This document shows positions 160 through 18,607 of a stretch of DNA of 33,819 nucleotides, piece by piece. Location of the stretch: positions 1 through 33,819 of the forward strand of contig DEUP01000043.1 in the NCBI GenBank assembly GCA_002362625.1, in the 5' to 3' direction. The notes beneath the pieces are model-generated. The model did no database searches, was not told the DNA's origin, and saw only the letters and a list, made by a program, of their open reading frames with translations. The position numbers and the translations under genes are program-made. This DNA is from Clostridiales bacterium UBA3259 (GTDB taxonomy: Bacteria > Bacillota_A > Clostridia > Oscillospirales > Oscillospiraceae). The number at the start of each line of letters is the position of its first letter. Within the stretch, counting starts at the first letter, position 1.

Positions 160-1098
160 TTAGCTTTCCTTTGGCACTCCTTCATTTTCTTCCGAAATGT
201 TCCCCCAGGCATTCCAGGAATGGCTGCCCTTGTAAAAGATAATAGCGGACGCCTGTTCGCTGAACTGTCTCGGTGTCGCGCCATACATCTTTTGAAATGC
301 GCGATAAAAGGTAGTGTAGTTGGAAAAACCGCAGTTCTTATAAATTTTTGTTGGAGAAGCGCCATCATATAGCTTCTGCCGGGCAAGCGTCAAACGACGC
401 TGAACAATATAGTTGTGAACCGTAATACTCATCTGTTTTTTAAATATCCGTTCCAGGTGATATTTGCTGACGAAAAACCGCTCCGCGATCATATCCAGAG
501 ATAAATCCCCCTGGAGATTCTCATTGATATAGTCCACCACCTCTTTTATCAGTTTGGAGGTGTCTTCATTCTCCACTTCCTCGATGCCGGAGGAGTTCAC
601 AGCCCGGTAAATCCCCATAAGCACCAAAGAAGCCAATGCCGTGGTGATAAGGTCGCCGAAGGGTTTATCATAGTCCCGCTCACTGGCCAGTTGAAATACC
701 AGCCTGAAAATCTCGTTCTGGTAGCTATGGGCAAACCGGAACCGCGCGCCGGTTTTTGTCTCATCCAGTCTTTCATAAAAGCTCTTCAGCTTGCCGCTGG
801 GATCAATGGACAGCAGCAGTTCCTGAGTAAACCAGATGGCCAGACGGCGGTAGGGAAGCCGATTGGGGGAATAGGAATAGTAGGGAGTGTAACGGGGCGC
901 AATCAGAATATCGCCGGGGATCAGATCGTAGCGCTGATCCTGAATGATATAGTAGACATCTCCCTCCAGGAAAAACACGATTTTAAAGAACTGATGGGGC
1001 ACGATTCTGGAGGCGCTTTCCGGCGAATCGTCAATAAAATAAAAGGCGTCAAAGTACGGCGGGCGGATTGTTCTCAGGAAATCTCTCGTATTAGCCAT
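160..1098 (-). CDS. AraC-family transcriptional regulator with N-terminal cupin
   Basis: A 312-residue cytoplasmic transcription factor. The N-terminal half (about residues 30-85) looks like an AraC-type cupin ligand-binding fold, with GDILIAPRYTPYYSYS as the typical PGD-like turn. The C-terminal part (about 185-285) is the double helix-turn-helix AraC domain, with LSLDMIAERFFVSKYHLERI as first helix pair and the CGFSNYTTFYRAFQKMYGATPRQF signature at its end, written here only to locate it. The ATG follows GGAGG at a good distance. It is divergent from the sugar ABC operon across an AT-rich gap, the usual arrangement for a local activator, so it probably senses the imported compound or a breakdown product. 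The family assignment is secure; the ligand is inferred only from context. Confidence 0.93.
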   Translation of the reverse strand: MANTRDFLRTIRPPYFDAFYFIDDSPESASRIVPHQFFKIVFFLEGDVYYIIQDQRYDLIPGDILIAPRYTPYYSYSPNRLPYRRLAIWFTQELLLSIDPSGKLKSFYERLDETKTGARFRFAHSYQNEIFRLVFQLASERDYDKPFGDLITTALASLVLMGIYRAVNSSGIEEVENEDTSKLIKEVVDYINENLQGDLSLDMIAERFFVSKYHLERIFKKQMSITVHNYIVQRRLTLARQKLYDGASPTKIYKNCGFSNYTTFYRAFQKMYGATPRQFSEQASAIIFYKGSHSWNAWGNISEENEGVPKES

Positions 1099-1277
1099 TT
1101 TTACCTCCGCAATTTTTTCAATATCTTTTCATTATCGAATTAGAAAAATTATTTTGTTTCTATAATTTAGTGAAATTTAATAAAAAATAGAGTAGATATT
1201 TGTGCTATATGCCCATTTTCTATCAGGATTCTCTTGTTTTTTATTATCTCACAAAAAAGCAAGAAATGCAATATTTA

Positions 1278-1320
1278 CCAATGGATTTGGCAACAAAATT
1301 AATCACCGCCATGCTATACT
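1278..1320 (+). promoter_or_regulatory. Candidate activator-dependent promoter of the ABC/GUS operon
   Basis: TATACT at 1315-1320 is preceded by TGC, an extended -10 element. The hexamer 17 bases upstream (1292-1297, AACAAA) is a poor -35. A weak -35 with a divergent AraC gene fits activator control. CCAA at 1278-1281 and TTGG at 1287-1290 form a small inverted repeat that could be part of an operator. The whole gap 1099-1386 is strikingly AT-rich and holds no supportable gene. The operator is a guess. Confidence 0.4.
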
Positions 1321-1386
1321 TTATTACAACACCCGGAAATTGAAGCTACTGTGGCTGCGATACGCGAAAAGAAAGGATCTTCATTT

Positions 1387-2892
1387 ATGGCAGAAAAGTA
1401 CTTACTGGAATGCACCGGCATATCCAAATCCTTCGGGCCGACAAAAGCAGTCGTCAACGTGGATTTTACGATCCCCAGCGGCGAAGTACGGGGCCTGATC
1501 GGAGAAAATGGCTCCGGCAAGTCTACCCTGTGCAATATGATCACCGGTATTCTGAAGCCGGAAAGCGGCCATATGCTCTTCAAGGGCGCGCCCTTCGCTC
1601 CCGGCTCCCTGCTGGATTCCAAAAGTAAGGGAATTAGTATCCTGCTGCAGGAAACCGGCACCATCAGCGGTATGACCGTGGCTGAAAACATTTTTCTTGG
1701 GAAAGAGCACCTGTTCACCAAATGGGGCGCTGTGAACAAAAAGGCCATGAATGCCCAGGCCCAGGCGTTGGTGGATGAAATGGGGTTGGACATCGCCGCC
1801 ACCCAGGTCATTGATCGATTGTCCTTTGAGAACCGGAAGCTGGTGGAGGTCATCCGGGCCATGTCCGACCATCCGGATCTGCTGATCGTAGATGAAACTA
1901 CCACCGCCCTGTCCCAGTATGGCCGGGAAAAAATCTACAGCATTATCCGGAACATGAAGCAGGAAGAGCGATCCGTGATCTTTATCACCCATGACCTAAA
2001 CGAACTGATGGAGGTCTGTGACTGTGCCACAGTGCTCCGGGACGGCCACTACATCGACACCGTTCCCAAGGCCGAATTCAGTGAGGAACGGATCCGCCAG
2101 TGCATGATCGGCCGTGACCTGACCCACAGCTACTACCGCGATGACGCGGTGGGAGAAATTCCGGACAGCGACACCGTGGTGCTGGATGTGAAAAACGTCA
2201 GCATGGGCCGCAGTGTCCGCGGCGTCAATCTGCAGCTGCATCAGGGAGAGATCCTGGGCATCGGTGGTCTGACCGACTGCGGCATGCACGATCTGGCCCA
2301 GATGATGTTCGGCGCCCTGCCCTGTGACGAGGGTGAGGTGATCCACTGCGCCAGCGGACAGAAAATCACCCGGCCCCGTCAGGCCATTGATCTGGGAATC
2401 GCATACATTCCCAAGGATCGGGATCAGGCGTCTGTCTTCCTGTCCTCCTCCGTCCAGGACAACGTCACCGTCGCCGCCACCGACAAGTTGATGAAAAACG
2501 GCTTCCTGTCCAAGAAAAAGGAAACCGAAATGGCCTTGAGGGAAACGGACAAGCTGTCTGTCAAGATGCGGGATATCCGTCAGTATGTCCGGGATCTCAG
2601 CGGCGGAAACAAACAGAAGGTCGCTGTGGCGAAATGGCTGGCAAGCAACGCCCACATCCTTATTATGGACTGTCCCACCAGAGGCATCGATATCGGCGTG
2701 AAGGCCACCATCTACGCCCTGATGGAGCAGCTGAAGCTGGAGCAGAAATCCATTATTATGATCTCTGAGGAGCTTCCCGAACTGATCGGTATGGCTGACC
2801 GGCTCCTGATCATGAAAAACGGCAGGATCAACGGAGAGTTTTATCGGAAAGACGGCCTGACAGAAAGCGAAATCATTCGCAAGATGATTTGA
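1387..2892 (+). CDS. CUT2-type sugar ABC importer, two-domain ATPase (RbsA/MglA-like)
   Basis: This 501-residue cytoplasmic ATPase powers a CUT2 (ribose/galactose-type) importer and has two fused nucleotide-binding domains. Domain 1 has Walker A GENGSGKS (39-46), Walker B LLIVDE (165-170) and H-loop THD (201-203). Its signature is LSFEN rather than LSGGQ, and the residue after Asp-Glu is Thr where Pro is usual. Domain 2 has a degenerate Walker A (GGLTDCGMHD), typical of this family, and a canonical LSGGN (404-408). Its Walker B reads MDCPTRGIDIG, so Cys429 stands where catalytic Glu is normal. A GTG 36 bases upstream is in frame, but GAAAGGA sits just before the ATG at 1387, so that start is preferred. 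The permease gene follows after 9 bases. Substrate is inferred from the neighbouring glucuronidase. Confidence 0.95.
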   Translation: MAEKYLLECTGISKSFGPTKAVVNVDFTIPSGEVRGLIGENGSGKSTLCNMITGILKPESGHMLFKGAPFAPGSLLDSKSKGISILLQETGTISGMTVAENIFLGKEHLFTKWGAVNKKAMNAQAQALVDEMGLDIAATQVIDRLSFENRKLVEVIRAMSDHPDLLIVDETTTALSQYGREKIYSIIRNMKQEERSVIFITHDLNELMEVCDCATVLRDGHYIDTVPKAEFSEERIRQCMIGRDLTHSYYRDDAVGEIPDSDTVVLDVKNVSMGRSVRGVNLQLHQGEILGIGGLTDCGMHDLAQMMFGALPCDEGEVIHCASGQKITRPRQAIDLGIAYIPKDRDQASVFLSSSVQDNVTVAATDKLMKNGFLSKKKETEMALRETDKLSVKMRDIRQYVRDLSGGNKQKVAVAKWLASNAHILIMDCPTRGIDIGVKATIYALMEQLKLEQKSIIMISEELPELIGMADRLLIMKNGRINGEFYRKDGLTESEIIRKMI

Positions 2893-2901
2893 GGTGACAT
2901 T

Positions 2902-3843
2902 ATGATGAAAACGCTGAAAACCAGGATTGCCCAAAAATGGAACCCCTCCATCAAGGATCTGTTCCCCTATCTGGGCCTTATCCTGCTGATCGTACTGTTT
3001 GCCACAACGACCAATGGAAAATTCCTGCGCTCGTCCAATCTGATGACGATCCTGAGGCAGTCTGTGATCGTGATGATCGGCGCTCTTGGCTCGTCCTTCG
3101 TACTAGCCCATGGCAACATGGACTTCTCCATCGGCGGTGAAATGGCGCTATGTTGTCTGCTGAGCTATTATATTTCCCAACTGAATCCCTATCTGATGCT
3201 GCCCGCCTGCATTGTCATCGGCATGCTGCTGAGCTTTCTGGTCAGCATGGTGCATGTGGTCATCGGCGTGCCGGCCTTTGTATCCGGAATGTGCGTCATG
3301 TTCATTGGCAAGGGCATCGTCCAATCGGTTTCCGGCAGCGGACTGACCTGTCCGTCTATGTATGGCGCGCTGGATCAGACTCCCTTCTATGTTCTTACCC
3401 TCGCTCTGGTTCTGGCAATTACCTACGTCCTGTATAACTACACAAAGGTAGGACGCTACAACCGGCTCATCGGCTCCAATCCCACAGCTTCCTTCCTCAG
3501 CGGCATTGATACCAGGAAGTACAAGGTTCTGGCTTTTCTGACCTCCGGCTTCTGTGTGGGTATCGCGTCGTTTTTGACCATTGTCCGGGGCGGCGGCGTT
3601 TCCGCCCAGACCGGCGCCAGCTTTGAAATGGATACCATCATTGTTCTGACCCTGGGCGGCGCTCCTTTGTCCGGCGGCTCCGGCGTTAAGCTCCGCAGTG
3701 CGCTGCTGGGCGCCCTGACCTACTATATTCTCAGCAATGGTCTGGTCATCTGGGGCGTTCACGCGGAAATCATTTTCGCCATCAAGGGCATTCTGTTCCT
3801 GACCATTGTGGCCCTTACTTTCGACAGAAGCAATAAGGTCTGA
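2902..3843 (+). CDS. CUT2-type sugar ABC transporter permease (RbsC-like), first of two
   Basis: A 313-residue inner-membrane permease with many hydrophobic segments and the family hallmark for this class near residues 70-80 (AHGNMDFSIGGEMAL, compare the TGGIDLSVG motif of RbsC). Near the C-terminal half it has LTLGGAPLSGGSGV, the loop that usually contacts the ATPase in this family. GAGGTGACATT precedes the ATG and the ATPase stop is 9 bases upstream, so the two are co-translated. A second, different permease follows the binding-protein gene, so the channel is probably a heterodimer. Family is clear; substrate is not shown by the sequence. Confidence 0.92.
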   Translation: MMKTLKTRIAQKWNPSIKDLFPYLGLILLIVLFATTTNGKFLRSSNLMTILRQSVIVMIGALGSSFVLAHGNMDFSIGGEMALCCLLSYYISQLNPYLMLPACIVIGMLLSFLVSMVHVVIGVPAFVSGMCVMFIGKGIVQSVSGSGLTCPSMYGALDQTPFYVLTLALVLAITYVLYNYTKVGRYNRLIGSNPTASFLSGIDTRKYKVLAFLTSGFCVGIASFLTIVRGGGVSAQTGASFEMDTIIVLTLGGAPLSGGSGVKLRSALLGALTYYILSNGLVIWGVHAEIIFAIKGILFLTIVALTFDRSNKV

Positions 3844-3892
3844 TTTTAGAGCAACCGCTTTAAAATAAAAAAATTATAAGATGGAGGCAATT

Positions 3893-5014
3893 ATGAAAAA
3901 GTTTACAGCACTTATTCTTGCTCTGGTCATGGTTCTGTCCCTGCTGACAGGCTGCGGAGCATCCGGCGAAACCGCCAACAAAGACGGTAAGTACAGCGTC
4001 GGCGTCATTCTGTACGGCAAGGAAGATACTCTGGGCGGCAGAATCTACTCCCTGCTGAATGATGCCGCAGAAGCCCTGGGGTGCGAAATCACCTTCTCCC
4101 TGGGCGATTACGACACCACCGCTCAGATCACCGCCGCCGAAAACCTCATCGCCGCCGGCGTGGACGGCATCATCTGCCTGCCTCTTGCCGAGACCACCTC
4201 TCAGAAGCTGGGACAGCTTTGTGAAAGCAACGGCGTTTATTTCGGTTTGCTGCTTCGCACCATGAGCGACGAAACCATCAACAAAGAAGTCCGCGCCAAT
4301 CCCTACTTTGTGGGCAACATCCTGGGCGACGACATCGGCAACGCCAAGGAGCTGACCCGTATCCTCATGGAGGAATACGGCTGCAAGAATCTGTGCTCCT
4401 ACTACGCCCCGGAAGGCACCTCCATGGCTCTGCGCAATGACGGCATCCGGGAAGCCATTGCCGAATACGGCGGAAAGCAGCTGTCCGAGGCCACCACACC
4501 CAGCGATTCCAACATGGCCCCTGTGGCCGGCGTCATGCAGAACTTCGTAAACACCAACGCCGATTTCCAGGGCATCGTCTCCGCTGCCGGCTCCGGCGGC
4601 ATCGGTGAAACCATTGGCTCTACCATGCAGGCGATGAACGTGGAGGGAGCAAAGTACGCCTGCTTCGACACCTATGACGGCATGGTGGAATCCTTCGAGA
4701 GCGGATATCTGGCTGTCGTCTGCGGCGGTCAGGCTCCTGCCTGCGTTTATCTGTTCTCTATGCTCTATAACGCCATGGACGGCCACAAGCTCACCGAAAC
4801 CGGCGAGGAGCTGCTGATGACCTATATGTTTATCCGCTCCGCGGAGGAGGCACAGAACTTCCTAAAGTATATTGACAATCCCGAAGTGGACATCTACAGC
4901 GCTGAGGAAATCCAGAATATGACCGTTCGCCACAACCCCCAGTTCAACTGGGAGGGCCTGCACCAGGTCATGGAGGATTACACCTACGAAAATATTATGG
5001 CAAAGCTGAACTGA
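3893..5014 (+). CDS. Sugar ABC transporter substrate-binding lipoprotein
   Basis: A 373-residue extracytoplasmic binding protein. The N-terminus MKKFTALILAL leads into lipobox LLTGC, with the lipidated Cys at residue 21. The mature part follows the periplasmic-binding-protein type 1 plan of RbsB/LsrB relatives (KYSVGVILYG start, AAENLIAAGVDGIICLP, later FQGIVSAAGSGGIGET and YDGMVESFESGYLAVVCGGQ as hinge and ligand-loop regions, quoted only as landmarks). An upstream in-frame ATG at 3881 contains the GGAGG ribosome site itself, so the start at 3893 is preferred. It lies between two permease genes of the same importer. As the only binding protein it should set specificity, perhaps for glucuronides, but this is contextual. 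Confidence 0.93.
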   Translation: MKKFTALILALVMVLSLLTGCGASGETANKDGKYSVGVILYGKEDTLGGRIYSLLNDAAEALGCEITFSLGDYDTTAQITAAENLIAAGVDGIICLPLAETTSQKLGQLCESNGVYFGLLLRTMSDETINKEVRANPYFVGNILGDDIGNAKELTRILMEEYGCKNLCSYYAPEGTSMALRNDGIREAIAEYGGKQLSEATTPSDSNMAPVAGVMQNFVNTNADFQGIVSAAGSGGIGETIGSTMQAMNVEGAKYACFDTYDGMVESFESGYLAVVCGGQAPACVYLFSMLYNAMDGHKLTETGEELLMTYMFIRSAEEAQNFLKYIDNPEVDIYSAEEIQNMTVRHNPQFNWEGLHQVMEDYTYENIMAKLN

Positions 5015-5035
5015 ACGCACGCTCATCCACAGATT

Positions 5036-5066
5036 CTGCCGGGCCGGGGACTGCCCGACCCGGCAG
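5036..5066 (+). promoter_or_regulatory. GC-rich stem-loop after the binding-protein gene
   Basis: Positions 5036-5048 pair with 5054-5066 around GACTG, with one mismatch and no T-run. It lies between the binding-protein stop and the second permease. Such hairpins often protect the 3' end of binding-protein mRNA and give it higher expression than the membrane genes; that role is inferred. Confidence 0.55.
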
Positions 5067-5084
5067 CGCCCAAGGGGACTGATT

Positions 5085-6074
5085 ATGAAACTGACAAAAC
5101 ATCCCGCGTTTGTATCCCTCCTGGAAATTGCCAAGGCCTTCGCTATCCCCGCCATTATCTACCTGAGCCTGACGATCCTCCTTCCGGAGAAAATCTATCT
5201 GAGCAACGTAAAATTTCTGCTGATCCAGGCCGTGACTCCCGCCATATTGGCATGGGGCGCAAGCTTCAATCTGACGGCCGGGCACAGCGACTTTTCTGTG
5301 GGCGCCTCCATGCTGCTGGCAGCCATTGTAGGCGGCAATCTGGCTCTGAAATTTGATCTGGGCGTCTGGGGTTTGATTCTGCTGTGCCCCATTGTGGGTA
5401 TGCTGAGCAGCGGCCTCACCGGTTTTCTGTATACCACGCTGAAGATTCCCTCCATGATCGTTTCCGTGGGGGTCATGCTGATCGTGGAAAGCGTTTGCAG
5501 CATCATCTTCGGCGGCAACGGCATCAACCTTCCCTCCAGCTACATCGTCTTCGGCCCCTCCAACAATACGCTGATTTTTGGCGGGTTGGTTTTTCTGTTG
5601 GCCTACTATATGTTCAATTTCCGCACCTTCGGTGTCCATGTCCGGGCCCTGGGCAACAACGCGGGCGTCGCGGCGCAGTGCGGTCTGAACATCGACAAAG
5701 TACGCCTGAAATGCTTTATGTGCTACGGCTTCTTCGCCGGACTGTACGCTGTGGTCTCTCTGGGCACCTCCGGTGTGGCCAAGCCTGTATCCTCCATGGG
5801 CACCATGCGCACCGCCTTTGACGCCATGATGTGCTTCATGGTGGGCACCGCCCTGGCCCCCAGAATCAACACCATCATCGCCATCTATGTGGGGGCGCTG
5901 TATATGCAGATGGTGAATCTTTTCCTGTCCGCCATCAACTTCCCCAGCCTGTTCACCCAAGCCATTGTGGCTTTCTTTGTGCTGGTTGTTATGTGTTACT
6001 CCACCTGCAAGGAAGCGAAAGCCCTGAAGAAAGCGCATCGGCGCGAATTTGAGCTTGCCGCTGCCGAAGGGTAA
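5085..6074 (+). CDS. CUT2-type sugar ABC transporter permease, second of two
   Basis: A 329-residue polytopic membrane protein related to RbsC/LsrC permeases but clearly different from the first permease. The family motif appears near residues 64-76 as TAGHSDFSVGASM. The C-terminus is basic and charged (TCKEAKALKKAHRREFE), as expected on the cytoplasmic side. AAGGGGA precedes the ATG. The pairing of two permeases with one two-domain ATPase and one binding protein suggests a complete heterodimeric importer of Lsr/Xyl-like layout. The next gene begins 79 bases downstream; a short stem (6088-6093 with 6105-6110) lies in that gap without a T-run. Confidence 0.92.
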   Translation: MKLTKHPAFVSLLEIAKAFAIPAIIYLSLTILLPEKIYLSNVKFLLIQAVTPAILAWGASFNLTAGHSDFSVGASMLLAAIVGGNLALKFDLGVWGLILLCPIVGMLSSGLTGFLYTTLKIPSMIVSVGVMLIVESVCSIIFGGNGINLPSSYIVFGPSNNTLIFGGLVFLLAYYMFNFRTFGVHVRALGNNAGVAAQCGLNIDKVRLKCFMCYGFFAGLYAVVSLGTSGVAKPVSSMGTMRTAFDAMMCFMVGTALAPRINTIIAIYVGALYMQMVNLFLSAINFPSLFTQAIVAFFVLVVMCYSTCKEAKALKKAHRREFELAAAEG

Positions 6075-6153
6075 GCCCCGTCATCCCGGGAAAGCCCTCG
6101 CGGTTTTCCCCTCCTGTGAAAAGGATACAAATCCATTGAAAGGACCTGACAAA

Positions 6154-6972
6154 ATGAGTGGTGTAAAGATCCTGTACCGACATGTTCAAGAAGTTCCCGC
6201 CGACAAATGGCTGGAAAAGCTGGAGCTGGAGCGCCAGACCGACGCTCTGGAGGCCCAGCTGGGCTATCCCCTTCCCCGGCGGCTCCGCTCCCTGTTCTCC
6301 AGCGAGCACAGCTATACCGTCCGGGTCGAGGAGCGCGTATTTGACAGCTACGGCGATTTTGGCCGCAAGCTGGAAGAGCGTCACCAGAATAAACAGCTGA
6401 TGCAGCTGGATGCCAAGCGCCGGTCGATCATCAAGTGGGAACGGGAAGAGTTATTCTATGTGGATTCCGGAACGCCTGTTCCCCGGTGGATGCAGGCTGT
6501 CTCCCGGCGTCCCATGACCGAAGAGGAAATGAAGGAAGCCAACATTCCCGGCGATCCCATTTCTGTCTCCCCTTCCCAGATAGAAGAGAACATCCGCGCT
6601 GGCAAGCTGCGGATCCTATACCGCATTGTTCAGGAGGTTCCCAAGGACCGCTGGGCGGAAAAGCTGGAGCAGGAACGCTTCAGCGACGCTGCCGAAAAGT
6701 TCCGGGGGGATCCCCTCCCCACCCGCTACCGGGGCATGTTTGGCAGCGAGCATTCCCAGATCCGCATCAACGAGCGGGAATATGACGACTACGCTGCCTT
6801 CGCCAAGGATATGGAGTCCTTTATTGAAGATAGAAATCCAGGTGACAAAGCGGCTATGGACGCGGAGATCCGCCGTCAGGACTTCTTTCTGTGGGAACGG
6901 GAAGAGATCTACATTGTGGATTCCGACAGCTATACCCCCAAGTGGATGGCCTACGCCGCCTGTCCGCAATAA
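6154..6972 (+). CDS. Two-repeat protein of unknown function, possible NIPSNAP/Dabb-like fold (paralog A)
   Basis: A 272-residue soluble protein made of two copies of one domain, residues about 5-112 and 152-264, joined by a 40-residue linker. Both copies share ILYR-x-x-QEVP-x-x-x-W-x-EKLE at the start, PxPxRxRxxF in the middle, and KWEREELFYVDS or LWEREEIYIVDS followed by P-x-W-M at the end. The order beta strand, helix with conserved Trp, strand, then (V/S)-F/Y-D-S/D-Y with a helix and a final strand ending in VDS recalls NIPSNAP-like dimeric alpha/beta-barrel proteins, but this is fold inference. No signal peptide or membrane segment. The start follows GAAAGGACC; a longer in-frame upstream start overlaps the permease and lacks a ribosome site. 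I do not recognise the family; a role on the glucuronide aglycone is a contextual guess. Confidence 0.85.
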   Translation: MSGVKILYRHVQEVPADKWLEKLELERQTDALEAQLGYPLPRRLRSLFSSEHSYTVRVEERVFDSYGDFGRKLEERHQNKQLMQLDAKRRSIIKWEREELFYVDSGTPVPRWMQAVSRRPMTEEEMKEANIPGDPISVSPSQIEENIRAGKLRILYRIVQEVPKDRWAEKLEQERFSDAAEKFRGDPLPTRYRGMFGSEHSQIRINEREYDDYAAFAKDMESFIEDRNPGDKAAMDAEIRRQDFFLWEREEIYIVDSDSYTPKWMAYAACPQ

Positions 6973-6993
6973 TTAAGAAGGGAGAGAACGGAA

Positions 6994-7797
6994 ATGTCAG
7001 TTGCCATTATGTACCGTCAGGTACAGCAGGTGCCCGCTGCCGCCTGGCCCGCGTTCCTGGATTTGGAAAAGCGAATGGATGAAGCGGAACGGAAATTGGG
7101 ATATCCCATGCCCCGCCGTTACCGCTCCATGTTCGGCGGCGAAAGCAGCAACACACGGGTCTGCGTCCGAATTTTTGAAAGCTACGGGGAATTCGGCCGC
7201 CTGCTGTCAGAGCGCTTCTTAAATGACGAACTGCAAAAGCTGGACGCCGAAAAATTGAATATGATCGAATGGGATCGGGATGAACTATATTATCTGGACT
7301 CCGGCGCTCCGGTGCCCCGGTGGATGCAGGCCATCTCCCGCAAGCCCTTTGATCCGGAGCATGTCGCCTGCTGTATTCCCCGTCACGATTCCACGCCAAA
7401 GGATCCGGAGCACGTCCGCAAATGCATCGAATCCGGCAAGGTGCGCGTCCTCTACCGCCAGATTCAGCAGGTTCCCAGAGATCGGTGGGCGGAAAAAATG
7501 GAGCAGGAGCGCATCAGTGATGAAGCCGAACTTCACGCCGGCAATCCTCTCCCCCTGCGCTACCGTTCCATGCACTCCCCTATGGACTCCCATATCCGGG
7601 TCAGCGAACGGGAGTACGAAAGCATGGAGCATCTGTGCAGCACCACCGAGGACTTCTTCGCGGAAACCACGCCGGCGGATGCCAAGGTCATGGACGCGGA
7701 GGGTCGTCGTCAGGATTTCTTCACCTGGGAGCGGGAGGAGCTGTACTATGTGGATTCCGACAGCTTTGAGCCTGCCTGGATGTCCATGACGGAATGA
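6994..7797 (+). CDS. Two-repeat protein of unknown function (paralog B, tandem duplicate of the preceding gene)
   Basis: A 267-residue soluble protein, paralogous to the gene just upstream over its whole length. It again has two domain copies, about residues 3-110 and 150-262. Landmarks are IMYRQVQQVP and VLYRQIQQVP, GYPMPRRYRSMF and PLPLRYRSMH, EWDRDELYYLDS and TWEREELYYVDS, and PRWM or PAWM. First copies of A and B resemble each other more than the two copies inside one protein, and likewise second copies, so the internal duplication came before the gene duplication. AAGGGAGAGAAC precedes the ATG, 21 bases after paralog A. Two Cys (126-127) lie in the linker only here. The pair may form a heteromer. 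Function unknown; the nearest guess is a dimeric alpha/beta-barrel enzyme acting on the aglycone or substrate. Confidence 0.85.
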   Translation: MSVAIMYRQVQQVPAAAWPAFLDLEKRMDEAERKLGYPMPRRYRSMFGGESSNTRVCVRIFESYGEFGRLLSERFLNDELQKLDAEKLNMIEWDRDELYYLDSGAPVPRWMQAISRKPFDPEHVACCIPRHDSTPKDPEHVRKCIESGKVRVLYRQIQQVPRDRWAEKMEQERISDEAELHAGNPLPLRYRSMHSPMDSHIRVSEREYESMEHLCSTTEDFFAETTPADAKVMDAEGRRQDFFTWEREELYYVDSDSFEPAWMSMTE

Positions 7798-7846
7798 CCC
7801 CCACTTTCTCAACTTCTTAACTCTTAAAAAAGGATGGTGAGCGCCT

Positions 7847-9607
7847 ATGCTGCGCCCCCGCGACTCTCACACCCGCAGCGCGATCCAAATTGTGGGACTG
7901 TGGGATTTCTGCCTCGACCCCAATGACCAGGGCATTGAGGAGCAATGGTTTTCCAATGGGTTAAAGAACCCTGTCCGTATGACCACCGGCACCAGCTTCA
8001 ATGACATCTTTACCTCCAAGCTGATCCGGGACTACAGCGGCGCTTTCTGGTATCGCAAACAGATCAGGATCCCCTTCCTGCCTGCCGGGAACCGCCTGCT
8101 CCTGTATTTTGAATCCGTTACCCACGCCGCGCAGGTCTGGGTCAACGACACTTTGGTCTGTCAGCATTCCGGTGGATATCTTCCCTTTCAGGCGGATATC
8201 ACCGACACCGTCCGCTCCGGTGATTTCGCCTTTGTTACGGTTCGGGCGGACAATATTCTGAGCTTTGAAACCATTCCTCCCGGCATTGTTGTTCCGGAAT
8301 CGTCCGGCCCCAAGCAGCGTTATTGGCACGACTTCTTTAACTACGCCGGTATCCATCGGCCTGTATGGCTGTGCACCGTCCCCAGCCAGCACATCGAGGA
8401 TGTGACTGTGGTCACCTCCTTTGACGGCTCTGACGGCATCGTCCGGTATGAGGCAAGCTCTGTCTGCCCCGGTAATGTCACTATAAAGCTTTACGACAGT
8501 ACCGGTTCCCTGGTAGCCGCCGGCGCCTCCGGGGAAGCCCGAATCCCCAACGTTCACCCCTGGTCAGTGGGCGACGGATATCTGTACCGCGCGGAATTCT
8601 GTCTGGAAGCAGAAGGAAAAACCGTGGACATCTATCCTATGCGGGTAGGCGTGCGCACTGTGGAAGTAAAGGGCACCCAGATCCTGCTCAACGGGAAGCC
8701 GGTATACCTGAAAGGGTTTGGCATGCACGAAGACCTCGCGGTGATCGGCAAGGGACACCATGACGCCTTTATGCTCCATGATTTTGCCCTTCTCAAATGG
8801 ATCGGCGCAAACTCCTTCCGCACCTCTCATTATCCCTATTCCGAGGATGTTATGGACTATGCCGATGAACAGGGCTTCCTTGTCATCGATGAAACCCCTG
8901 CTGTAGGCCTGAATCTGGTCAACGGCGGTATTTTCCCCGGCGCGGATATGGTTACCTTCTCGCCGGATACCATCAGCGAAAAAACCCAGAGGGCGCACAT
9001 GCAGGTCATTGAGGAGCTGATCCGCCGGGACAAAAACCATCCCTGCGTAATTCTCTGGTCTATTGCCAACGAGCCGGAATCTCAGACCGACGCCGCTGCC
9101 GCCTACTTTGAACCTCTGTTCGCCGCCGCCCGGCGCTCTGACCCTACCCGGCCTGTGGGCTTCGTCAACATGGCCCTGGCCCCCTATGGACTGTGCAAGG
9201 TGGCACAGTTCTCCGATGTGATCATGCTGAACCGATACCATGGCTGGTATTCCTTCAATGACGACCTGACCGGCGCGGAGGCTGCCCTGCGGGAGGAGCT
9301 GGAGCTTTGGCAGCAGGTAGGGAAGCCCATTATCATGACAGAGTACGGCACCGACACCATGAATGGTCTCCACGCCGTAGTCCCGGAGCCTTGGACCGAG
9401 GAATACCAGGTAGCCTACTTACAGATGTACCACAAGGTCTTCGACGCCATCCCGGCTATGGCCGGCGAGCAGGTCTGGAACTTCGCCGACTTCGCCACCT
9501 TCCCCGGTACCATGCGCGTCGGCGGCAACCGCAAGGGCGTCTTCACACGGGATCGGCAGCCCAAATCTTCCGCCTTTACGCTGAAGCGCCGTTGGGCTGA
9601 GAAATAA
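7847..9607 (+). CDS. uidA: GH2 beta-glucuronidase, cytoplasmic, UidA-like with Loop 1
   Basis: Hydrolyses beta-D-glucuronides to glucuronate and aglycone. At 586 residues it matches E. coli UidA from the first residues (MLRPRDSHTR) to the end: sugar-binding domain, immunoglobulin-like domain, then the TIM barrel. The acid/base Glu is E409 in WSIANEPES and the nucleophile is E499 in MTEYGTD. The N-x-K glucuronate-carboxylate motif is present as N561-R-K563 in VGGNRKGVF, which separates it from beta-galactosidases. The segment 353-380 is about as long as Loop 1 of E. coli GUS, the class tied to hydrolysis of small drug glucuronides. No signal peptide, so it works inside the cell and needs an importer, fitting the ABC genes upstream. 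GGTGAG precedes the ATG. Confidence 0.96.
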   Translation: MLRPRDSHTRSAIQIVGLWDFCLDPNDQGIEEQWFSNGLKNPVRMTTGTSFNDIFTSKLIRDYSGAFWYRKQIRIPFLPAGNRLLLYFESVTHAAQVWVNDTLVCQHSGGYLPFQADITDTVRSGDFAFVTVRADNILSFETIPPGIVVPESSGPKQRYWHDFFNYAGIHRPVWLCTVPSQHIEDVTVVTSFDGSDGIVRYEASSVCPGNVTIKLYDSTGSLVAAGASGEARIPNVHPWSVGDGYLYRAEFCLEAEGKTVDIYPMRVGVRTVEVKGTQILLNGKPVYLKGFGMHEDLAVIGKGHHDAFMLHDFALLKWIGANSFRTSHYPYSEDVMDYADEQGFLVIDETPAVGLNLVNGGIFPGADMVTFSPDTISEKTQRAHMQVIEELIRRDKNHPCVILWSIANEPESQTDAAAAYFEPLFAAARRSDPTRPVGFVNMALAPYGLCKVAQFSDVIMLNRYHGWYSFNDDLTGAEAALREELELWQQVGKPIIMTEYGTDTMNGLHAVVPEPWTEEYQVAYLQMYHKVFDAIPAMAGEQVWNFADFATFPGTMRVGGNRKGVFTRDRQPKSSAFTLKRRWAEK

Positions 9608-9633
9608 GCGGTTTTCTGCCGGGAGGCTCTTTC

Positions 9634-10458
9634 ATGAAACTACAACAGGGAAAAATCGCTTTCATCACCGGCGGCGCCAATGGCATCGGCGCCGCCGCCG
9701 CAAGAATGCTGGCGGAGTACGGAGTGCAGGTGGTGAGCTTTGACCGGGATGATGCCGCCAATCAGAAGCTGGCAGCACAAAGCAGTCTGATTCACCCTGT
9801 CTCCTGCGACTGTACCGATTATTCCCAGATTCGCGACTGCTTTCAATTCGCTGTGGAGAAGCTGGGAGGCGTGGATATTTTGATTAACAACGCCGGGGAT
9901 TTTGTCTTCTCCAGCTTTCTGAAGGATTCCTACCCGGAAGGGCTCCAGGGATTGGAGCATATGCTGCGGCTGTTCGTTGGGAGCACCTACGCCTTTACCC
10001 TGCTGGCGGCGCCCATTCTGGCGGCCAGGCAGGGTGCGGTCATCAACGTGCTGACGAACCATGTTCATCGGGATATCTGCCGGGTCTCTCCGGAGGAGCA
10101 TTCCTATGACGCGGCGAAATACGCCCAGATGAGCCTGAACATGTCCATGGCCGCGGAACTGCATCCCATGGGTGTCCGGGTCAACGCCGTGGATCCCGCC
10201 GCCACCTACACAAAAATGCTCACGGATTTCTTCACCGCAAAGGGTATGCCCGCCACGGTAGAGAGCATTGCCAAAACAACCCGTGTCGGCTCGCTGATGC
10301 TTCCGGAGGATGTGGCCCTTGCCATCTGCAATCTCATTGGATGGGAAGACCCGGCTCCTGTTGGGCAGAATTACTTGCTCCGGTCTCAGGAAGACTGTAT
10401 AAGGCTGAAGCATCCTCCCCAGGAGGTATCGTGTGAAAAATCACACGATACTATTTAA
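9634..10458 (+). CDS. Short-chain dehydrogenase/reductase (SDR), NAD-type
   Basis: A 274-residue Rossmann oxidoreductase. The cofactor loop is TGGANGIG (12-19), an Asp at the end of strand 2 (D37, in SFDRDD) favours NAD(H) over NADP(H), NNAG is at 85-88, and the catalytic Y158-x3-K162 lies in SYDAAK. The usual catalytic Ser after strand 5 is not obvious; INVLTN offers Thr141, and the loop before Tyr is longer than usual. The C-terminal tail from about residue 245 lacks the common (V/N)VDGG ending. GGGAGG precedes the ATG, 26 bases after the glucuronidase. It probably oxidises or reduces a hydroxyl/keto group of the aglycone, but a sugar substrate cannot be excluded. Confidence 0.92.
   Translation: MKLQQGKIAFITGGANGIGAAAARMLAEYGVQVVSFDRDDAANQKLAAQSSLIHPVSCDCTDYSQIRDCFQFAVEKLGGVDILINNAGDFVFSSFLKDSYPEGLQGLEHMLRLFVGSTYAFTLLAAPILAARQGAVINVLTNHVHRDICRVSPEEHSYDAAKYAQMSLNMSMAAELHPMGVRVNAVDPAATYTKMLTDFFTAKGMPATVESIAKTTRVGSLMLPEDVALAICNLIGWEDPAPVGQNYLLRSQEDCIRLKHPPQEVSCEKSHDTI
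10427..10450. repeat. Perfect 10-bp inverted repeat at the end of the SDR gene
   Basis: TATCGTGTGA (10427-10436) and TCACACGATA (10441-10450) form a perfect hairpin or palindromic operator around AAAA. It overlaps the last codons of the dehydrogenase, whose tail is therefore encoded by the palindrome. No T-run follows. Confidence 0.6.
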
Positions 10459-10503
10459 ACGGCTTGCAGCTCGCCGCTTTCGCGGCAACCGCGGCACATG
10501 CCG

Positions 10504-10579
10504 AATAATCTCCATTCAGCCGCATATGGGGGTTTCATCGCAATTTGTGCTGTTGGCGCGCGGCAGAATGGAGATTAAT
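10504..10579 (+). promoter_or_regulatory. Inverted repeat that would sequester the SnoaL-gene ribosome site
   Basis: Positions 10504-10523 are complementary to 10560-10579 at 18 of 20 bases, separated by 36 bases. The right arm ends one base before the ATG at 10580 and contains the GGAG ribosome site (10570-10573). If the RNA folds this way, initiation would be blocked. A smaller stem GCCGC-TTTC-GCGGC lies just upstream, so alternative folds are possible. Seen directly; the regulatory role is inferred. Confidence 0.5.
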
Positions 10580-11053
10580 ATGTATACTTTACAGCAGCTG
10601 AGTGACCTGGAACAAATCCGCACCCTTCGTACCGTATATTCCCATTTCTATGACAGTCAGGATCTGGACGGCCTGTGCTCCCTGTTCGCGGATGACGCCG
10701 TCTGCCAGTGGGACGAACGCCATGGCGGCACCTGGCGGGGCATCCGGGAAATCCGGCAAAACTACCAGAACTATTTTGACCTGTACCCAGGCTGCTTTTC
10801 CGTCGTCCATTCCGTGACAAACCACTGGATCGATCTGACGGGAGACACTACCGCCCATGGCCGGTGCTTCTTGCTGGATTTCAATTTTCTGAAAACAGAA
10901 CGTGTTTCTCCTCTGGGAACCGTGGGTGTGTACGATGATTTCTATAGAAAGACCGCGGACGGATGGAAATTTCAGCGGGTCAGCTTGGATTTTCTTTGGC
11001 CGGAACGCGCGATTTTGAACCCGCCCGCTTTCGGCAGATCTCCCACAGTCTGA
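10580..11053 (+). CDS. SnoaL-like (NTF2-fold) protein, possible dehydratase/isomerase
   Basis: A 157-residue protein with the SnoaL_4-type NTF2 fold: N-terminal helix QLSDLEQIRTLRTVYSHFYD, then LFADDAVCQW, then HSVTNHWIDLTGDTTAHGR, and a C-terminal strand near GWKFQRVSLDF. Relatives include scytalone dehydratase and the bile-acid 7-alpha-dehydratase BaiE. Tyr20 and Asp25 fall in the same YxxxxD spacing as the BaiE active-site Tyr and Asp, as recalled from that family. An upstream in-frame ATG (10568) overlaps the GGAG, so 10580 is preferred. Last gene before a strong terminator. A lyase or isomerase step on the released aglycone fits the context; a non-enzymatic binding role remains possible. 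Confidence 0.85.
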   Translation: MYTLQQLSDLEQIRTLRTVYSHFYDSQDLDGLCSLFADDAVCQWDERHGGTWRGIREIRQNYQNYFDLYPGCFSVVHSVTNHWIDLTGDTTAHGRCFLLDFNFLKTERVSPLGTVGVYDDFYRKTADGWKFQRVSLDFLWPERAILNPPAFGRSPTV

Positions 11054-11095
11054 TTCCGATTGTCTCGCGGGCACGATACCAAAAAACAATACGCA

Positions 11096-11140
11096 AAAAC
11101 AAGGCGCCGGAAAGTCTTTTCCCGCCTTGTTTTCTTTTTT
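11096..11140 (+). terminator. Intrinsic terminator ending the glucuronide operon
   Basis: Arms 11096-11106 and 11123-11133 pair perfectly (11 bp) around a 16-base loop, followed by a T-rich tract to 11140. It marks the end of the run that begins with the ABC ATPase. Confidence 0.88.
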
Positions 11141-16450: not shown

Positions 16451-16479
16451 TTGCATTCCCCTTTTCTTTCGTGTATAAT
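16451..16479 (+). promoter_or_regulatory. Promoter of the EF-G-like gene
   Basis: TTGCAT at 16451-16456, 17-base spacer, TATAAT at 16474-16479. The start of transcription would fall near 16486, leaving a leader of about 58 bases. Confidence 0.8.
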
Positions 16480-16543
16480 GTCATCATTCGGGTGTCCGCG
16501 CCCATATGGAAGGATCCCCTTCCCGAAAGGAGTAAGAACTACT

Positions 16544-18607
16544 ATGTATACCGTTAATTCCATCCGCAACATCTGCCTGCTCGGGCACAGCGGCAGCGGC
16601 AAGACCGCCCTGGCCGAAAGTTTGCTTTACATGACCGGTGCCATTGACCGGATCGGCCGGAACGCCGACGGCAACACCGTTTGCGATTATGATCCCGAGG
16701 AGATCAAGCGTCACATCTCCATCTCCACCTCCGTGGTGCCTCTGGAGTACAAGAACGTAAAGATTAACGTTCTGGATACCCCCGGTGCCTTTGACTTCTC
16801 CGGCGCCGTTATGGAGGCCCTCCGGGCCGCCGACGCCGCTGTGCTGGTGTGCTCCGCCAAGGACGGCATCACCGTTGGCTTTGAGAAGGCCTGGAAGTAC
16901 TGCGAACAGCGCAACATGCCCCGGTTTGTCTACATTTCCAAGGTGGACGAGGACAACTCCGACTACAACGCCACCTTCGAAGCCCTCCGGGAAAAGTACG
17001 GCAACAAGATCGCCCCTGTGGTGGTTCCCATCTGGGATTCTTCCAAGAAGGTCACCGGCATCATCGATGTGCTGAACAAGCGCGCCTACGAGATGCAGAA
17101 GCTGAAGCGGGTTGAAATCGCCGTTCCCGACGACAAGGCCGCTGTGATTGAAGAGTTCAACGACGCCCTGAAGGAAGCCGTTGCGGAAACTGACGAGGCT
17201 CTCATGGACCGCTTCTTCGAGGGTGACGACTTCACCTATCGGGAAATGCTGGACGGCCTGCACCAGGGCGTGAAGGACCTGAGCCTGTTCCCCGTGCTCT
17301 GCGGCTCCGGCGTCACCTGCCTGGGAAGCCTGATGCTCATGGATCACATCATCGACCTGCTCCCCAACCCTGTCCAGGGCAACTACCACAAGGCCACCAC
17401 CGCCGACGGCAAGGTGGAGGAATTCGTGGTCTCTCCTGGCGGCGTGCCCTCCGTCTTCGTATGGAAGACCGTTTCCGACCAGTACGGCAAGTATTCCTAT
17501 ATCAAGGTTCTCTCCGGTGAAATCACCTCCGACACCACTCTGGTCAACGCCCGTACCGGCGAGACCGAGAAGCTGGGACGGCTCTACACCATGTGCGGCA
17601 AGAAGGCCAGCGAGGCCAAGGTGCTCTCCTGCGGCGACATCGGCGCCATCGGCAAGATGGACAAGGTCAAGACCGGCGACACCCTCTGCGACCCCAGAAA
17701 GGTTGTCTCCCTGAAGCAGATCCCCTACGCCGCTCCCTGCTACTCCATGGCCATCGCCCCCAAGGTCAAGGGTCAGGACGACAAGGTTGGCACCGGCCTG
17801 AACCGCTTAAACGAGGAAGATCCCTCCTTCACCCTGGTCAACAACGCCGAAACCCACCAGTTCGTCCTTTCCGGCGCCGGCGACCAGCACCTGGATGTGC
17901 TGTGCTCCAAGCTGAAGAGCCGCTTTGGCGTGGAAGCCGTTCTCAGTCCCGCTAAGGTTGCCTACCGGGAAAAGATCAAGAAGACCGTTCAGGCTCATGG
18001 CCGTCATAAGAAGCAGACCGGCGGCAGCGGCCAGTTCGGCGACGTGTGGATCCGCTTCGAGCCTCAGGAGGAGCAGGATGATATGATCTTCGCCGAAGAG
18101 GTCTTCGGCGGCTCCGTGCCCAGAAACTTCTATCCCGCCGTGGAAAAGGGCATTCAGGAAGCCGTTCAGAAGGGCCCCCTGGCGGGCTATCCCATGGTGG
18201 GCCTGAAGGCCGTGCTGTACGACGGCTCCTACCACCCCGTGGACTCCAACGAAATGGCCTTCAAGCTGGCCGCCATTCTGGCTTACAAGGAAGCCATGCC
18301 CAACGCCAACCCCACCCTCCTGGAGCCCATCGGCGCTCTGGCGGTTTCCGTGCCGGACAGCTACGTAGGCGACGTCATGGGCGATCTGAGTAAGCGCCGC
18401 GGCCGTCCCATGGGCATGAACCCCGACCACGAGGGCAACACCGTTATCGAGGCCGAAGTTCCCATGGCGGAAATGAGCAGCTACGCCATCGATCTGCGGG
18501 CCATGACCCAGGCCAGAGGCTCCTTCACCCTGGAGTTCGTCCGGTACGAGGAAGTGCCCAAGGCCAACCAGGCAAAGATCATCGCCGATTCCAAGGAAAA
18601 CGAGTAA
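16544..18607 (+). CDS. Elongation factor G paralog with altered GTPase motifs
   Basis: A 687-residue translational GTPase of EF-G size and domain order (G domain, II, III, IV, V). G1 is GHSGSGKT (14-21). G3 reads DTPGAFDF (78-85), so Ala82 stands where EF-G has the catalytic His of DTPGHVDF. G4 reads SKVD (132-135) instead of NKxD. The SAx-like G5 is LCGSG. Domain IV and V are complete (HKKQTGGSGQFGDVWIRFEP landmark; RRGRPMG and PMAEMSSYAIDLRAMTQARGSF near the end). GAAAGGAG precedes the ATG. It belongs with EF-G-like paralogs common in Clostridia and Actinobacteria, not with tetM or the main fusA. No ribosomal protein genes lie nearby. Role in translation or ribosome rescue is unknown. Confidence 0.92.
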   Translation: MYTVNSIRNICLLGHSGSGKTALAESLLYMTGAIDRIGRNADGNTVCDYDPEEIKRHISISTSVVPLEYKNVKINVLDTPGAFDFSGAVMEALRAADAAVLVCSAKDGITVGFEKAWKYCEQRNMPRFVYISKVDEDNSDYNATFEALREKYGNKIAPVVVPIWDSSKKVTGIIDVLNKRAYEMQKLKRVEIAVPDDKAAVIEEFNDALKEAVAETDEALMDRFFEGDDFTYREMLDGLHQGVKDLSLFPVLCGSGVTCLGSLMLMDHIIDLLPNPVQGNYHKATTADGKVEEFVVSPGGVPSVFVWKTVSDQYGKYSYIKVLSGEITSDTTLVNARTGETEKLGRLYTMCGKKASEAKVLSCGDIGAIGKMDKVKTGDTLCDPRKVVSLKQIPYAAPCYSMAIAPKVKGQDDKVGTGLNRLNEEDPSFTLVNNAETHQFVLSGAGDQHLDVLCSKLKSRFGVEAVLSPAKVAYREKIKKTVQAHGRHKKQTGGSGQFGDVWIRFEPQEEQDDMIFAEEVFGGSVPRNFYPAVEKGIQEAVQKGPLAGYPMVGLKAVLYDGSYHPVDSNEMAFKLAAILAYKEAMPNANPTLLEPIGALAVSVPDSYVGDVMGDLSKRRGRPMGMNPDHEGNTVIEAEVPMAEMSSYAIDLRAMTQARGSFTLEFVRYEEVPKANQAKIIADSKENE

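Follow-up and report, generated by a model that had tools for sequence, protein, structure and literature searches.

In Escherichia coli, the gusRABC operon pairs a beta-glucuronidase (GUS) with a dedicated carrier. Drugs, hormones and toxins can be reactivated by bacterial beta-glucuronidases, which are usually viewed as sugar scavengers. In gut bacteria, loci combining glucuronide transporters, glucuronidases and AraC regulators are described in PMC4732671. PMC10382948 places BaiE in SnoaL_4 and has oxidation by BaiA and BaiCD precede dehydration by BaiE. SteC of Comamonas testosteroni is presented in PMC13101464 as a steroid dehydratase similar to BaiE (about 28% identity). Here we describe a gene unit at positions 160–11133 of contig DEUP01000043.1 from Clostridiales bacterium UBA3259 (Oscillospiraceae; assembly GCA_002362625.1), analyzed as a single stretch of 33,819 nucleotides (the window).

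Open reading frames (ORFs) and family scans revealed an AraC gene on the minus strand, divergent from nine plus-strand genes whose run is closed by a terminator. The run encodes a CUT2-type ATP-binding cassette (ABC) importer, two tandem repeat proteins, a GUS, a short-chain dehydrogenase/reductase (SDR) and a SnoaL protein. This gene content and order had been claimed by a first-pass annotation made from the letters alone, and every gene is present and open. We tentatively favor reading the unit as an AraC-controlled glucuronide salvage operon, possible though short of probable, in which uptake and cytoplasmic hydrolysis would be followed by oxidation of and elimination from the aglycone. The features are as follows:

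160–1098, minus strand: divergent AraC-family regulator (PF12833, PF00165, PF02311)
1099–1386, no strand: putative A+T-rich divergent promoter region (from sequence only)
1387–2892, plus strand: CUT2-type ABC ATPase with two ABC_tran domains (PF00005 twice; XylG/RbsA-like)
2902–3843, plus strand: CUT2 permease 1 (PF02653)
3893–5014, plus strand: lipoprotein sugar-binding protein (PF13407; lipobox LLTGC, by eye)
5085–6074, plus strand: CUT2 permease 2 (PF02653)
6154–6972, plus strand: repeat protein A, built of two modules predicted to form an internal dimeric alpha/beta barrel
6994–7797, plus strand: repeat protein B, two modules, paralogue of A (alignment)
7847–9607, plus strand: GH2 beta-glucuronidase lacking a signal peptide and retaining N-x-K (Pfam, NCBIfam, structure alignment)
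9634–10458, plus strand: classical SDR oxidoreductase, YxxxK present, usual catalytic Ser absent (PF00106)
10580–11053, plus strand: SnoaL_4 protein with BaiE-type Tyr/Asp/His/Asp positions (PF13577)
11096–11139, plus strand: intrinsic terminator (hairpin and T run, folding)

Start codons were refined from sequence, relatives and ribosome-binding sites, giving ATG at 1387 for the ATPase, 3893 for the binding protein, 6154 for repeat A and 10580 for SnoaL. The mechanical SnoaL ORF (10433–11053) runs upstream across the SDR end, and its real start is most likely 10580, judging from relatives. Strand and spacing suggest that the nine genes are co-transcribed. The closing terminator proposed in the first pass proved to have perfect 11-bp arms (11096–11106 and 11123–11133) followed by a T run; the surrounding 131-base region folds with −29.2 kcal/mol (z = −2.84), and the hairpin at 11096–11133 is absent from the list of a consensus terminator scan.

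Linkage of the repeat proteins, GUS and SnoaL

To identify shared contigs, we used the exact base count of each protein's longest contig as a fingerprint, with shifts of 1–100 bases either way as the control. Six of the 17 GUS proteins with at least 63% identity shared a fingerprint with a repeat protein (16720, 119938, 6857, 17978, 4005 and 5819), compared with a control mean of 0.085 and maximum of 1. Below 63% identity, 2 of 103 did so (13034 and 10418; control mean 0.275, maximum 3); these two are weak by number because they fall within the control, though their source labels agree, as they do in 8/8 GUS–repeat matches. Fingerprints were also shared between repeat proteins and 3 of 15 SnoaL proteins (16720, 119938 and 8476; control 0.08, maximum 1), two of them in common with close GUS proteins as well. 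Since the shared fingerprints far exceed the length-shift control, repeats, GUS and SnoaL travel together. A separate GUS–SnoaL match at 6988 (P0195/P0079) was taken as chance, its source labels being different. Gene content, folds and this linkage were all obtained by computation.

A predicted cytoplasmic GUS beside a CUT2 importer

With the NCBIfam model PRK10150, which is of the UidA type, the GUS scored 803.1 bits (cut-off, 544); it aligned over nearly its full length with GusA structures and 5c70. Its residue 1 aligns where E. coli-type GusA begins, with no N-terminal extension or signal peptide seen, so we read the enzyme as cytoplasmic, in agreement with the signal-less, UidA-like glucuronidase proposed earlier. 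The same alignment contains the N-x-K motif, which we take to be for glucuronate recognition, and the ANE and TEYG motifs, presumably catalytic. From 7,994 candidates scored, 4,456 matched at 1e-150; of the best 120 of these, all carried the N-x-K pattern and 118 carried ANE. Identities in this set comprised 15 proteins at 72–99%, one at 65% and one at 63%, followed by a plateau at 56–60% whose named members are mostly actinobacterial.

The importer has the CUT2 hallmarks of a duplicated ATPase, BPD_transp_2 permeases and a Peripla_BP_4 binding protein (family scans). Of 188 NCBIfam matches of the ATPase, the 25 listed all scored under their curated cut-offs, and among the matches listed for the four importer genes, none reached its cut-off. 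The binding protein gave weak PDB matches to the CUT2 binding proteins 4yo7, 5hko and 4rs3. CUT2 is a sugar importer family, which favors a cargo of aldobiouronic acid or another glycoside, whose 'aglycone' would itself be a sugar processed by the SDR and SnoaL; however, we know of no sugar substrate for SnoaL proteins resembling BaiE, scytalone dehydratase or LinA, and we consider this explanation improbable.

Two tandem, predicted barrel proteins of an unmodeled family

The first-pass annotation had called the two tandem proteins unknown repeat proteins, and this description stands. Repeats A and B are 51% identical and contain two modules each, giving four homologous modules with 25 invariant columns in common. 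Neither Pfam nor NCBIfam scans gave anything consistent, including Pfam at E-values up to 5, and A and B are a protein family without a model in either database. When 24 members were compared with Pfam, the commonest match was SMI1_KNR4 (5/24 members; best E = 7.3e-4), with member 1 unmatched, and a search of PDB sequences with the repeat profile gave three matches (E = 0.8–0.95). In a protein collection, we found 73 family members forming paired A and B clades. One of them, P0033, has a B-like first and an A-like second module and is possibly an A/B hybrid or a misassembly. Elsewhere the family was not recovered: 15 pattern matches in genome contigs and 33 in viral contigs gave no confirmed member, the plasmid collection yielded none, and neither did the genomes searched by taxon (391 from the class of G001, 16 from G277's family, 31 from G277's order and 28 from G012's order), these genome searches having been run without a positive control.

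A confident structure prediction, covering A only, shows tandem ferredoxin-like modules that together form an internally duplicated dimeric alpha/beta barrel, and on this model repeat A would belong to the dimeric alpha/beta barrel superfamily. Identity to proteins of that fold (2pgc, 3f44, 3mcs, the sulfur oxygenase reductase 2cb2, chlorite dismutase and the anthrone-oxidase-like 5f9p) is 6–13%. RhaM rhamnose mutarotase is presumably a single-module version of the fold; no RhaM structure was among the 50 matches listed, which excludes nothing. Chlorite dismutase and sulfur oxygenase reductase use conserved His ligands for heme or iron. These are missing from the repeat barrels, because no His or Cys column is conserved at 95% in the 68-row family alignment, and we therefore rejected the barrels as heme or iron enzymes. 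The conserved residues are instead rich in Arg and Glu, a set that suits a polar or acidic ligand, so such a ligand is favored despite the best Foldseek match of repeat A being an anthrone-oxidase-like protein.

An SDR and a BaiE-like SnoaL protein

The SDR keeps the classical motifs TGxxxGIG, NNAG and YxxxK, and the position of the catalytic Ser is occupied by Thr when aligned with mannonate oxidoreductase and by His when aligned with borneol dehydrogenase. The stretch around this position reads T-N-H-V, of which T-N-H recurs in the L079 relative, and the protein may belong to an unusual SDR subfamily.

The SnoaL protein retains the fold and the Tyr/Asp/His/Asp positions of BaiE (codons at 10637, 10652, 10808 and 10877), at 18–20% identity in structural alignment. 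By profile comparison, its ketosteroid isomerase matches (E = 0.003–1.7, with partial profile coverage) were weaker than those to BaiE and LinA. By these comparisons it looks more like a BaiE- or scytalone-type dehydratase than a ketosteroid isomerase.

An SDR–SnoaL–AraC module, partly broken and without GUS, occurs elsewhere. An SDR profile at 1e-30 matched 137/391 genomes, all except G009 through general SDR likeness; G009 has the SDR–SnoaL pair and no GUS match at 1e-100. In L079 (3787–4739), back-to-back SnoaL and AraC genes both miss their 5' parts, through deletion across the divergent promoter or misassembly, and L080 (15075–15328) holds SnoaL in two pieces separated by a gap of ~58 lost residues, a copy that has probably decayed. 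In L081 (4969–9932), a SnoaL_4 relative adjoins an SDR, an OYE-type flavoenzyme and a major facilitator superfamily (MFS) carrier; the flavoenzyme resembles mycofactocin-OYE, BaiCD and bilirubin reductase, below their cut-offs, and L081 is possibly an unrecognized steroid- or tetrapyrrole-modifying locus.

Other glucuronidase loci

We compared the unit with 52 further GUS loci (38 + 14; GUS 38–58% identical; some contigs short). At a tblastn threshold of 1e-5, the 38 loci from genome contigs, several of them short, contained no counterpart of the permeases, binding protein, repeats, SnoaL or AraC, with weak ATPase matches in seven and SDR matches in two. A search at 1e-100 found GUS in 15 of the 391 genomes; one of these genomes contains L001, and from the remainder we took 14 loci with at most ~9 kb of flank, less at contig ends. 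At 1e-4 these 14 had no permeases, binding protein, repeats or SnoaL, an AraC match in two (L061 and L064), and a weak ATPase and a weak SDR match in one each. Their neighbors (10 genes tested by Pfam, 6 by NCBIfam) included GPH-type or phosphotransferase system (PTS) carriers or uronate genes in 9/14 loci: MFS_2/GPH-type carriers adjoin GUS in six (L061, L064, L068, L070, L072 and L074; the L061 carrier fragment scored 205 against a gph cut-off of 231) and PTS genes in two (L065 and L073), while L063 combines GUS with a KDG-kinase-like gene, KDPG aldolase, an SDR mannonate oxidoreductase and UxuA. In a Eubacteriales metagenome-assembled genome (G001), a 58% identical GUS stands alone between aminotransferase-like and HAD-type genes, named by eye (L001, 1510–3297); on another contig of that genome (L041), CUT2-like ATPase and permease matches adjoin an SDR match (26%).

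The L063 gene set means that an SDR adjoining GUS can serve sugar, and this bears on the live main rival to aglycone processing: that the whole unit serves the sugar, with the barrels as uronate mutarotases or isomerases, the SDR and SnoaL oxidizing and dehydrating glucuronate by a non-canonical route, and the aglycone as waste. The charged conserved set of the barrels favors that rival. In a partial check of the condition named in the first pass as refuting its reading (homologous loci without the SDR, SnoaL and repeats), the 52 loci, at 38–58% GUS identity, lacked both repeats and SnoaL, but close-clade contigs retained them. Against the rival, the window SDR is only 23% identical to the true SDR mannonate oxidoreductase of L063, and we rejected it as a member of that family (PRK08277; curated score 281), which lies outside its best 25 NCBIfam matches (the last at 81.9 bits). 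The named relatives of the SnoaL protein (BaiE, scytalone dehydratase and LinA) act on cyclic hydrophobic substrates, and G009 carries the SDR–SnoaL pair without the GUS. As claimed in the first pass, genes of the uxaC, uxuA or uxuB type were absent from the unit in Pfam and NCBIfam scans, as were those of the kdgK type, whereas a canonical locus has them. Overall, we judge a sugar-side pathway rather unlikely.

A proposed route through the unit

For the favored aglycone reading, we infer the substrate, the order of steps and the role of the barrels as follows. The CUT2 importer would bring in a small glucuronide, which the cytoplasmic GH2 enzyme would hydrolyze. On the cyclic aglycone so released, the SDR would turn a hydroxyl into a ketone; with the ketone activating the leaving group, SnoaL would then eliminate water or another such group, making the pair analogous to BaiA and BaiE in 7-dehydroxylation of bile acids. 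The ligand that the two alpha/beta-barrel proteins may carry or act on would be polar and acidic, such as the glucuronide, glucuronate or an acid intermediate. Glucuronide import with aglycone processing, as first proposed, is partly supported, by a cytoplasmic GUS in one run with a complete ABC importer, the linkage of repeats, GUS and SnoaL, the GUS-free SDR–SnoaL module and the lack of hexuronate-pathway genes in the unit, with the role of SnoaL shifted toward that of a dehydratase. Identical gene content would be expected if glucuronides were imported for carbon and the SDR, SnoaL and perhaps the barrels merely neutralized a toxic aglycone, and sequence cannot separate such detoxification from the route above; family scans found no exporter in the unit, and we give this explanation little credence.

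A broader claim would be that the unit represents a new type of pathway, in a lineage absent among the sequenced species searched: ABC import of intact glucuronides, cytoplasmic deglucuronidation and, coupled to these, remodeling of the aglycone through oxidation and elimination (dehydroxylation), for which an SDR subfamily and a BaiE-like dehydratase would be dedicated. The two tandem barrels, forming a new family, would be enzymes that handle glucuronides or acids. We regard this as unlikely at present. If true, glucuronidation would act as a targeting tag for aglycone modification, beyond being a source of sugar, and with aglycone-changing enzymes in the operon, some bacteria would change what becomes of the hormone, drug or plant compound. 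The SDR–SnoaL pair is directly assayable, and the gene order can serve as a marker for metagenome searches.

Genomic surroundings

Downstream of the terminator lie LytTR and DUF3021 genes, followed by murA, an rRNA methyltransferase gene, an EF-G-like gene, ftsH, pgk and a triosephosphate isomerase gene. The unit is probably located in the chromosome, since murA, ftsH, pgk and similar genes follow it. Among 291 genomes sampled from the class of G001, 275 gave a match to the phosphoglycerate kinase (PGK), the highest identity being 74%. The EF-G-like protein (16451–18607) scored above the PRK12740.1-5 subfamily cut-off and below the EF-G equivalog cut-off and is probably a paralogue.

Comparison with described systems

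A literature search, with most subscription papers outside it, turned up no account of such a set of genes and no paper that has SnoaL, beta-glucuronidase and glucuronide in combination. One paper has CUT2 along with glucuronide and ABC transporter (PMC8579813, on biomass degradation by Caldicellulosiruptor), and the portion of PMC12789469 seen contains nothing on such an operon.

As in E. coli gusRABC and gut GUS loci, GUS adjoins an importer, and the AraC regulator recalls the loci of PMC4732671; unlike any of these, the unit has a CUT2 ABC importer, an SDR, a SnoaL protein and two family-less barrel proteins. With the bai operon it shares a SnoaL_4 protein with the BaiE tetrad positions, and the oxidation steps that come before the dehydratase in bai (PMC10382948) parallel the proposed order; in contrast, no BaiCD-, BaiH- or BaiB-like gene is among the unit's families, which include GUS and an ABC importer instead. 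SteC, set beside the window protein by description only, is likewise a steroid dehydratase of the SnoaL/NTF2 type that resembles BaiE, with low identity, but it serves aerobic steroid degradation (PMC13101464).

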